Below, piece by piece: positions 15,570 through 18,843 of a stretch of DNA of 35,719 nucleotides. The DNA comes from Candidatus Aphodosoma intestinipullorum (GTDB lineage Bacteria > Bacteroidota > Bacteroidia > Bacteroidales > Paludibacteraceae). Position 1 is the first letter of the stretch. Each line of letters begins with the position of its first letter. Location of the stretch: contig JADIMV010000040.1 of the NCBI GenBank assembly GCA_017694515.1, forward strand, positions 1 to 35,719, read 5' to 3'. The notes under the pieces are model-generated. The model was not told where the DNA came from. It was given only the letters and a program-made list of their open reading frames with translations, and ran no database searches. A program made the translations under genes and the position numbers.

Positions 15570-17672
15570 ATGGCAACATTAGAGAAAATCAGGAGTAAAG
15601 GGACATTCCTTTTAATTGTGGTAGGTTTAGCTATTCTGGCATTTGTGATAGGAGATTTCCTCGGATCGGGCTCCACATATTTCCAGGAAAGCCGTAACAA
15701 CGTAGCCAAGATAAACGGCCAGAAAATCAAGGCAATGGACTTCATGAACTCTATCGAGCAGATGAGAAAAGTCTACGAGATGGAAATGGGTCAGGCCAGT
15801 CTCAACGATGAGGCGACAAACCAGATGAGAGAAAGCGTATGGGAGACCACGGTAAGAAGTAAAATCATAGGTGACGAGGCCAAGGCAATGGGCATGATGG
15901 TCACGAAGAACGAGCTTACCGACCAGATAGTCGGCTCTCACATAAGCCCTTACATAACCACACGTCCGGTGTTTATGAATCAGGACGGTGTGTTCGACCG
16001 TAACCAGCTGATTAATTTTCTCTCGATTATAGACGGAGAGCAGAGCGCGCAAATCCCTGCGGAAGAGCTCCAGAACTGGCGTAACTATTGGATGTTCTGG
16101 GAGAGAATGATAAAAGAGAACCGCATAGAGGAGAAATACACATCACTGATTTCCGAGGCGATAGCCGTTACACCGCTTGAAGCAAAATACGCGTTCGACG
16201 GCGGTAAGACATCGGCAGACATTGTATATGCAATGAAAAGCTATTATGCCATAGCCGACTCGACGGTGAATGTCTCCGACAGTGAGATAAAGGCACGCTA
16301 CAATAAGGAGAAAGAGCAGTTCAGACAGGAGGCTAACGCAAACATCAAATATGTAGCGTTCGACATCAAGCCTTCGCAGGAAGATTTCGATGATGTTGAA
16401 AGCTGGATTACGAAACTGAAAGACGAGTTTGCTTCTACTTCGGATATCGCGGGCGTGACAAACGGGAACTCTGATGTCACTTACAGCGGCGTGAACCTGA
16501 CCAAAGACGATGTGGACAAAGATTTCGCAGAGTTCGCGTTCAGTGGCAAGAAAGATGAGGTGTCCGGCCCGATATTTGTAAACAACACCTACAAAATGGC
16601 ACGCATCGTGGAGACTGGCATATCCTCGCCGGACTCGGTGAAACTCCGTAATATCGTGTTGTTCAGGCAGACCCCTGACGAGACACAGGCGCTTGCCGAC
16701 AGCATAGAGACAGCTCTCCTCGCTGGCTCTGATTTCGCACAGCTCGCAGAGGAACACTCCCTCGCACAGAATGCAAGGAACGGCGGTGAGATAGGTTGGG
16801 TGCGCGAAAACGAAGTGACGAAAGAGATTGCCGACAAGGCTTTCTACACCTCGACAAACGGATATTTCCATGTCAAGGAGGGCAATGCGATAATCATCTT
16901 CAATGTGGAGGAGATTGGAGGTAAAGCCGACAAGGTGAAGCTCGCGGTCATCTCGCGTGAAGTGATGCCCTCTTCGAGAACTCAGGCCGACATCTATGCT
17001 GAAGCAAAGAAGTTCGCCGTAGAGAATAACACTCTCGAAAAAATGGAAAGCGCAGCTAAGGAAGGGAATCTTAACCTGCGCAGCGCAAATAACATAAATA
17101 TCAATGCTACCCGTATTAACAATGTAAATCAGGCTCGGGAAGTGGTACGTTGGGCATTCGAGAACAAAGCCGGAACGGTATCTGATGTATTCGAATGTGG
17201 CGACAAACTCGTGGTTGCTGGAATAAACAGCGTACACGAGAAAGGCTACAGGAGCGTTGACGATGTGAAATCAAGGCTCATGACTGAAATCCGCAGGGAA
17301 AAGAAAGGCGATATTCTTACGGAACAGATGAAGGGCAAGACCATGGAAGAGCTTGCGGCAGACAACTTCTCTACCGACACAGTACGCGGTGTGAATTTCA
17401 ACAGCACATACGCGGGTTCGATTGGCAATGAGCCTGTCCTCTTCGCTCAGGTGGCCTCTGCAAAAGAAGGTGAGCTGTCGCAGCCGATAAAGGGAAATAT
17501 GGGCGCATTCGTCTATAAGGTCATATCAAAGACCGAATCGTCTGCACCATATAACGAGAAAGAGGAGATGGCTATGCTCTCCGAGCGTCAGCGTTACATG
17601 AACTCTTATCTCATCATTGATGCACTGAAAAAAGCTGCTGACATAGAGGACTTCAGATACAGATACTTCTAA
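15570..17672 (+). CDS. PpiD-like periplasmic chaperone / peptidyl-prolyl isomerase
   Basis: 700 residues anchored by one N-terminal membrane helix (GTFLLIVVGLAILAFVIGDF, about 11-30), with a large periplasmic part. A SurA_N-type chaperone region follows (VAKINGQKIKAMDFMNSIEQ). A parvulin domain sits at about 345-450 (LRNIVLFRQTPDETQALADS and NGGEIGWVRENEVTKEIADK), and a second, diverged rotamase-like region may lie near 590-670. It likely helps fold newly exported outer-membrane proteins. It closes the cluster, 138 bp after the CNNM gene, and is followed by a strong terminator. Confidence 0.9.
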   Translation: MATLEKIRSKGTFLLIVVGLAILAFVIGDFLGSGSTYFQESRNNVAKINGQKIKAMDFMNSIEQMRKVYEMEMGQASLNDEATNQMRESVWETTVRSKIIGDEAKAMGMMVTKNELTDQIVGSHISPYITTRPVFMNQDGVFDRNQLINFLSIIDGEQSAQIPAEELQNWRNYWMFWERMIKENRIEEKYTSLISEAIAVTPLEAKYAFDGGKTSADIVYAMKSYYAIADSTVNVSDSEIKARYNKEKEQFRQEANANIKYVAFDIKPSQEDFDDVESWITKLKDEFASTSDIAGVTNGNSDVTYSGVNLTKDDVDKDFAEFAFSGKKDEVSGPIFVNNTYKMARIVETGISSPDSVKLRNIVLFRQTPDETQALADSIETALLAGSDFAQLAEEHSLAQNARNGGEIGWVRENEVTKEIADKAFYTSTNGYFHVKEGNAIIIFNVEEIGGKADKVKLAVISREVMPSSRTQADIYAEAKKFAVENNTLEKMESAAKEGNLNLRSANNININATRINNVNQAREVVRWAFENKAGTVSDVFECGDKLVVAGINSVHEKGYRSVDDVKSRLMTEIRREKKGDILTEQMKGKTMEELAADNFSTDTVRGVNFNSTYAGSIGNEPVLFAQVASAKEGELSQPIKGNMGAFVYKVISKTESSAPYNEKEEMAMLSERQRYMNSYLIIDALKKAADIEDFRYRYF

Positions 17673-17688
17673 ATCGTTAGCACATACA

Positions 17689-17737
17689 ATAAAGCGGATG
17701 CGGGATTCGGCTCAGCCAAATCCCGCATCCGCTTTAT
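17689..17737 (+). terminator. Long Rho-independent terminator after the PpiD-like gene
   Basis: A perfect 19-bp stem (core AAGCGGATGCGGG/CCCGCATCCGCTT). The 11-nt loop can itself form GGC-TCA-GCC. The stem ends in CTTTATATA, so it terminates plus-strand transcription and may also work on the minus strand. Confidence 0.9.
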
Positions 17738-17760: not shown

Positions 17761-17880
17761 TATAAAAAACGAAAGCCTTGCTCACGCAAGACCTCCGCCC
17801 ACATTATCTATAATCTATAATCTATAAAAAAACCTTCTTTCCAATCTATGAAGAATCAAAACCAATTCTCTTGTTTTGAC
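17761..17880 (-). ncRNA. Candidate small RNA, about 120 nt
   Basis: Inferred from a well-formed minus-strand promoter followed, about 110 nt later, by a terminator-like hairpin, with no ORF between. The RNA would begin near 17880 with a small stem CAAAAC/GTTTTG. It passes an AT-rich stretch with repeated ATAGATT units and ends in a 7-bp hairpin GTCTTGC-GTGA-GCAAGGC followed by TTTCGTTTTTTATA. The U-tract exists only on the minus strand, which sets the direction. I recognise no known RNA family. Confidence 0.5.
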
Positions 17881-17884
17881 ACTG

Positions 17885-17915
17885 CAAAGGTACAGCTTTT
17901 ATTTTATCCCGCAAT
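17885..17915 (-). promoter_or_regulatory. Promoter of the candidate small RNA
   Basis: ATTG at 17915-17912, 19 nt, then TACCTTTG at 17892-17885 on the minus strand. There is no minus-strand protein gene downstream for more than 3 kb, so it would otherwise be orphaned. Confidence 0.6.
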
Positions 17916-18201: not shown

Positions 18202-18843
18202 ATGAGAAAGCCCGTAAAAACTGTTTTAGTCAGCCTGCTGCTTTTGGTCGCAATCGTTTTTGTAAACGGCTGTTACTTCGTGTTTTTTCATCAGTTCAAA
18301 TCAATGTCGAAACTCCGCCAAGGCAAAGATCTGAATCTCTACGAGTGTTGTAGCGCCTACACCATGCACATGGCTGTGTGGATATTCGGCTGGCCGTTGT
18401 CCCCTGAAGCGGCTTGGGAATGTTTCCTGCTCCACTTTCCTCACAATGACGGTGCTGTGGTGAGGTTCAGAGCCTCCGATGGGCTTATGAAATCTCCCAA
18501 ACTTCAGAAAGCGATAAAGTATTTGGCAGATAAGAAGGCAGGCACATCCGTTCACATCGTATGGAACGCAGCGAAGCATTTCGCCCTGAACAGCCCTGAA
18601 CACCGCGCGGCCATAGCTTTGAATGGATGCGATGTCATAAAGGGAAAAACTGACAAGGCGACGGGTGACTATGAGATTAGGATAAGGTGTCCGATGGTCT
18701 ATCCCAAATACTTCCGGGCAGAATTCAATCTCGGTCTGTTCACCATCTACATCCACGAAGGTCTCTTCAGACATTTGGAGGAGAAAGGCTGGATTAGCCG
18801 TTACACAGCTGAATACCATACCACGGTTAAAGTGACAAAATAA
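18202..18843 (+). CDS. Membrane-anchored protein, function unknown
   Basis: 213 residues with one N-terminal hydrophobic segment (VLVSLLLLVAIVFVNGCYFVFF, about 8-30). The VNGC inside it could be a lipobox, but hydrophobic residues follow the cysteine, so a plain membrane anchor is more likely. The rest is soluble, with CCSAYTMHMAVWIFGWPLS, several more cysteines and the aromatic segment YPKYFRAEFNLGLFTIYIHE. I do not recognise a family. It has its own promoter, and the antiporter gene begins 38 bp downstream, so the two may be one transcript. Confidence 0.78.
   Translation: MRKPVKTVLVSLLLLVAIVFVNGCYFVFFHQFKSMSKLRQGKDLNLYECCSAYTMHMAVWIFGWPLSPEAAWECFLLHFPHNDGAVVRFRASDGLMKSPKLQKAIKYLADKKAGTSVHIVWNAAKHFALNSPEHRAAIALNGCDVIKGKTDKATGDYEIRIRCPMVYPKYFRAEFNLGLFTIYIHEGLFRHLEEKGWISRYTAEYHTTVKVTK

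Follow-up and report, generated by a model that had tools for sequence, protein, structure and literature searches.

Regulatory RNAs of Bacteroidota are, to our knowledge, known almost only from Bacteroides. The FopS RNAs of that genus repress PUL mRNAs by start-codon pairing and bind RbpB; the 70% consensus of their seed (R1', GTGTTTTTCATAGTATTAGATTTAAGGTTAACAAA) is found at the 5' end of the RNA, and conservation of FopS was reported within the Bacteroidaceae (PMC11697453). Repression through start-codon pairing is also described for GibS of Bacteroides (PMC7366714). The locus analysed here lies in the draft genome of Candidatus Aphodosoma intestinipullorum (G000, 85% complete), in a window (the whole stretch of 35,719 nucleotides under analysis) where an Rfam search at gathering thresholds finds two tRNAs only. 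The minus strand at 17914–17764 carries a conserved small-RNA gene, probably previously undescribed, that we hold with high confidence to be real. We infer from the sequence that it is transcribed and where its 5' and 3' ends fall. The features of the locus are as follows.

17914–17885, minus strand: promoter of the Bacteroidota type (TTG at 17914–17912, 19-nt spacer, TACCTTTG at 17892–17885)
~17880–17764, minus strand: predicted small RNA of about 117 nt, placed by the FopS-based promoter-to-start distance and by conservation
17880–17855, minus strand: stem-loop of the 5' leader (8 bp, predicted by folding), with a sequence that differs between species
17834–17802, minus strand: single-stranded conserved core, the proposed seed (GGTTTTTTTATAGATTATAGATTATAGATAATG, including the ATAGATT heptamers), near-invariant in five species and with a start-codon region as its complement
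17800–17767, minus strand: terminator hairpin of 12–15 bp with a GUGA tetraloop (17785–17782), from the fold and from compensatory changes
17769–17764, minus strand: U-tract 3' of the hairpin (T6), read from the sequence
17691–17735, strand not assigned: near-perfect inverted repeat past the stop codon of the surA-like gene, separate from the small-RNA hairpin
15570–17672, plus strand: convergent neighbour coding for a SurA/PpiD-like peptidyl-prolyl isomerase of 700 aa (Pfam SurA_N_2, Rotamase_2)
18202–18843, plus strand: the other flanking gene, coding for an unknown protein of 213 aa

Architecture and conservation of the probable RNA gene

Relatives were sought by a DNA search over 61 genomes and by screening 358 genomes of the family (Paludibacteraceae) with a covariance model of 75 nt (R1). 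Five strong copies (95–102 bits) were found, all in the genus of the window genome, where five of the nine genomes (draft assemblies, 80–99% complete) carry one each: G000, G001, G003, G007 and G008, the last two being closely related to each other. The GenBank names of the four other orthologous contigs include Paludibacteraceae bacterium RGIG7225 and RGIG7374 (water buffalo caecum), together with RGIG4115 (roe deer caecum) and uncultured Bacteroidales bacterium E19__bin91. The small-RNA gene is found directly downstream of the surA/ppiD-like gene and convergent to it in G000, G001, G007 and G008, while the G003 copy keeps the same relative orientation about 5 kb from surA. G005 and G006 lack an RNA gene at this place, surA and the gene after it being directly adjacent, for which reason the RNA gene is regarded as a unit that was gained or lost and not as a part of surA. 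An earlier note on this DNA had proposed checking whether close relatives retain hairpin and promoter. The test did not refute the gene: both are kept in the five carriers, whose leader and flanks have diverged. A multicopy element was rejected, there being a single strong copy per genome and the weaker R1 matches in the family being mostly chance arrangements of stop codon, heptamers and terminator. A phage origin was likewise discarded, the exact core being absent from viral contigs. A weak R1 match in genus g16 (L058, genome G023) combines CATAGATTTAGATAATGTGTGG with a GUUUGCGUGAGCAAAU hairpin, and a TACCTTTG motif lies about 120 nt upstream of it; surA is not its neighbour, and it may be an orthologue from another genus.

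The minus-strand promoter with its 19-nt spacer is present as the earlier note described it. A single site of this type is weak evidence because the 35.7-kb window has five occurrences of TTG-N19-TANNTTTG, both strands counted, where local shuffling predicts 0.31. The motif is found, as TTG-N19-TANCTTTG with exactly 19-nt spacing, at the matching position in all five orthologues. No neighbouring gene needs this promoter, since those at 15570–17672 and 18202–18843 are both on the plus strand, in agreement with what had been noted. The 5' end of the RNA was set by analogy to FopS, which starts about 5 nt past TTTG. The folding energy of the predicted RNA has a z-score of -2.5 relative to dinucleotide shuffles, and the molecule is composed of three parts: a variable leader, an unpaired core and the terminator hairpin. 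The leader occupies 28–60 nt between promoter and core and is hardly alignable among the five orthologues except in the closest pairs. A small stem had been suggested for the 5' end; such a stem is predicted at 17880–17855, but its CAAAAC/GUUUUG version is kept only in G000, G001 and G003. Coding potential is absent between promoter and hairpin, as first noted from the lack of an ORF, and a hidden peptide was dismissed: the sole ATG of the core (ATAATGTGG) runs straight into TAG in G007 and G008.

The terminator stem has 12 bp, or 15 with a G-U/A-U extension (15 pairs counted). The earlier observation of a hairpin holds, but its size of 7 bp was an understatement, the stem being about twice as long. 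The stem is 100% paired across the five orthologues, with two pairs altered on both sides; this covariation is modest because only five sequences contribute to it, and the case therefore rests on the whole pattern. A T-run flanks the hairpin on its minus-strand side only. A shared bidirectional terminator of surA was rejected, given that the plus-strand side lacks a T-run and that surA has its own hairpin. The inverted repeat at 17691–17735 is probably this surA-like terminator and could act as a back-stop for the small RNA too; the separate surA-side hairpin is present also in G007 and G008.

The core is near-invariant in the five species, with the sequence UUUUUU[U/C]AUAGAUUAUAGAUUAUARAUAAUGURG (in DNA form TTTTTT[T/C]ATAGATTATAGATTATARATAATGTRG), whose [U/C] position is U in G000, G001 and G003 and C in G007 and G008. 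Its ATAGATT repeats, already pointed out before this analysis, are the sole period-7 array of the window. In the 1.84 Mb of G007 there are 118 period-7 arrays (run >=14) versus 0–10 for periods 4–6, 8–10 and 12, and 36 for period 11, so the heptamer repeat may be an ordinary array in origin. The G007 arrays are built from many different units. In other genomes of the family, five loci (L063, L065, L071, L073 and L078) have ATAGATT/ATTGATT/ATAGTTT-type arrays immediately after the end of a gene and before a terminator hairpin. The TAACTGA heptamers of Beggiatoaceae are a possible parallel to the G007 arrays (PMC4679880).

The abundance of such arrays, and their presence behind the stop codons of protein genes and ahead of the terminators, agree with the view that the locus yields a short non-functional transcript or antisense noise from the convergent surA region, its heptamers being a chance genomic repeat. 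We consider this very improbable: the exact repeat and the hairpin are kept although the C-terminal regions of SurA are only 52–54% identical in protein sequence to that of the window and the leader varies, and a cis antisense role does not exist in G003, because its copy lies about 5 kb from surA.

Translation starts as predicted targets

The complement of the core (ATAATCTATAATCTATGAAAAA / AUAAUCUAUAAUCUAUGAAAAA) has the composition of an AT-rich 5' UTR followed by a start codon and lysine codons. Since it resembles a translation start, the RNA most likely represses mRNAs of surface proteins by start-codon pairing. The idea of ATAGATT units accessible to base pairing fits these data: no part of the RNA is better conserved or less structured than the one they lie in, and its complement is a start-codon region. 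A search of the nine genus genomes for the core complement with up to three mismatches gives 13 sites besides the RNA genes, 12 of which are on the ATG of an ORF. Most proteins encoded at these 12 sites have signal-peptide-like N-termini, and they include an OmpA-like protein, a small beta-barrel, a surface protein with fn3 domains and lipoproteins; exported or outer-membrane protein mRNAs are most likely the main targets. A strict target pattern has one non-self match only in the window genome.

The sequence ATGAAAAA is in itself typical of exported proteins, and for this reason a controlled test was run on translation starts. It used the 1,396 predicted starts in 1.84 Mb of G007, so that its statistics refer to G007 and not to the window genome. 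The core binds 55 of these starts at -16 kcal/mol or better, versus a mean of 11.3 (maximum 37) for 20 dinucleotide shuffles; the coding-region controls give 9. When the anti-ATG part is fixed and only the remainder is shuffled, little excess is left, with 55 versus a mean of 37.4 at -16 kcal/mol (0/20 shuffles reach 55) and 140 versus 107 at -14 (1/20 shuffles). The U-run and CAU supply much of the start-codon signal. A true FopS seed of the genus, used as positive control in the same test, yields a clearer signal (127 versus 13.7 and 43.7).

The best computed duplexes are those with the mRNAs of a barrel protein of G003 (L099, -32.3 kcal/mol), of a 2,126-aa fn3 protein of G007 (L243, -28.4 kcal/mol) and of a lipoprotein of G000 (L095, -23.9 kcal/mol). 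G008 carries an identical copy of the 22-nt site of the barrel protein. Pairing to AUG involves a G-U wobble in G000, G001 and G003 because their core has U for C. The G003 barrel-protein target was sought in 1.84 Mb of G007 and not found there, and none of the targets predicted so far has been traced to all five species.

An independent small-RNA gene acting by antisense repression at start codons is, in our judgement, the probable and best explanation of the locus. A housekeeping Bacteroidota promoter would direct synthesis of an RNA of ~117 nt with a foldable leader, a core made of U7 and AUAGAUU repeats, and a GUGA-capped terminator. The core would be an antisense seed working in trans, its U-rich beginning and UAUAG/CAUAG pairing with the start codon and the initial lysine codons (CUAUGAAAAA) while the AUAGAUU repeats would lengthen the duplex into the 5' UTR (AUAAUCUAUAAUCU). 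The duplex would block ribosome loading, chiefly on mRNAs of exported or outer-membrane proteins. Both the pairing in trans and this repression are deduced from complementarity.

RNAs that sequester proteins typically carry repeated identical single-stranded motifs, a description that the AUAGAUU sites also fit. The RNA might then be a protein-binding sponge that does not pair with mRNAs, and RbpB of Bacteroides does bind single-stranded R1-containing regions of FopS (PMC11697453). This possibility is judged quite unlikely: the search for RRM_1 in the nine genus genomes (drafts 80–99% complete) found none, with a positive result for the Bacteroides ihuae control, and the conservation of the core matches an anti-start-codon sequence.

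A second set of predicted RNAs in another family

Matches of the R1 model at 36–46 bits define a second locus set, of a predicted RNA that is likewise undescribed and has a matching layout and a near-identical seed, in another Bacteroidales family, f26 (14 loci: L136, L268, L271, L272, L276, L278, L281, L285, L287, L289–L291, L293 and L296). All 14 share an invariant seed (TATGTTTTTATAGATTGTAGATT), a variable leader and a terminator capped by GUGA or GCGA, in whose stem covariation is strong (54 doubly changed cells versus 17 in shuffles; 12/13 pairs). A TTG-N19/20-TANNTTTG promoter is located 30–62 nt upstream in nine of them. An Rfam scan of seven of these loci gave no match at the RNA. Several f26 copies are found downstream of a small lipoprotein gene.

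In the reciprocal direction, a model built from the f26 loci only (R2) places the five window-type loci at ranks 1–5 in 1.5 Mb, mostly of G007 (best E 0.003). The features found in both lineages are the TTG-N19/20-TANNTTTG promoter, the variable leader, the seed UUUUU[U/C]AUAGAUURUAGAUU and the GNRA-capped terminator. The window RNA probably belongs, on these resemblances, to an undescribed class with members in another Bacteroidales family. Common descent of the window-type and f26 RNAs is likely, though not proven because the seeds are short and AT-rich.

Comparison with FopS, GibS and BTnc231

The window RNA shares several features with FopS (RF04319): a canonical Bacteroidota promoter, a U-rich seed that is unpaired and contains CAUAG/UAGAUU, a terminator hairpin with a CGUGAG loop behind it, and complementarity of the seed to start-codon regions. 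FopS is 65–70 nt long, is multicopy in Bacteroides and has its seed, ending in AGAUUUAAGGUUAA, at the 5' end, whereas the window RNA is single-copy, has a 28–60-nt leader and heptamer repeats, and features AUAAUGURG in place of AGAUUUAAGGUUAA. Its core resembles only the first half of the R1' seed and begins 28–60 nt inside the predicted RNA. GibS (RF04182) shares with it a long unpaired region with UUUUUCAUAG..UAGAU but has 142 nt, two metastable hairpins, a second seed and a PM2-type promoter; its model scores 22.8 or 15.5 bits on the window versus a gathering score of 115. BTnc231 (RF04180) of Bacteroides has a comparable 5' unpaired UUUUUUUCAUAGA..UUUAGAU and a CGUGAG-loop hairpin but differs by two more stem-loops in a 154-nt model. 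It has the best E-value in Rfam if flanking sequence is scanned too (0.0004, at 29.6 bits), with a score below its gathering value of 80.4. Membership was rejected, as the match depends on the surA-side hairpin at 17691–17735 and drops to 11.3 bits without it.

The window RNA could instead be a diverged FopS paralogue, that is, a true family member to which a 5' leader and heptamer repeats were added. The order of parts and the CGUGAG-type terminator loop are the same, the R1 model recovers true FopS loci in other families (~36–43 bits; L137, L277), and, when only the core of G000 or G008 is scanned, FopS has the highest bit score of the Rfam families. The Rfam FopS model gives only 19.7 bits in G000 and 23.1 bits in G008, however, against a gathering score of 56, AGAUUUAAGGUUAA is missing and the seed is away from the 5' end. 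The same genome, moreover, has a true FopS at another locus (G000:C95:5823-5916; L047, L105; 70 bits at L105) with its promoter directly at the seed. Given this second gene and the score in G000, the window RNA is not filed as FopS, and we regard the paralogue as unlikely.

True FopS, recognized by GTTTTTCATGGTATTAGATTTAAGGTTAA, a canonical promoter and a CGUGAG-type hairpin, is present in 302 of the 358 Paludibacteraceae genomes, usually in 1–2 copies; a reversed control pattern is found in none. RRM_1 proteins (RbpB-type) were found in 101 genomes elsewhere in the family and in none of those sampled from genera g1, g18 and g21 (9, 2 and ~178, respectively), most of which keep FopS. With FopS present in genera that have no detectable RRM_1, it becomes testable whether this RNA network can do without RbpB. 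We put forward tentatively, and somewhat short of a balanced judgement in its favour, that the window-type RNAs are a second widespread start-codon-targeting class parallel to FopS, marked by a free leader, an AUAGAUU-repeat seed and a GNRA-capped terminator, represented in two or more families, and RbpB-independent where the RRM protein is undetected. The seed design that joins an anti-start-codon sequence to heptamer repeats is common to two families and unmatched in Rfam 15, and the locus suggests that uncultured gut relatives of Bacteroides possess a conserved RNA that regulates surface proteins. The window RNA most likely works like FopS.
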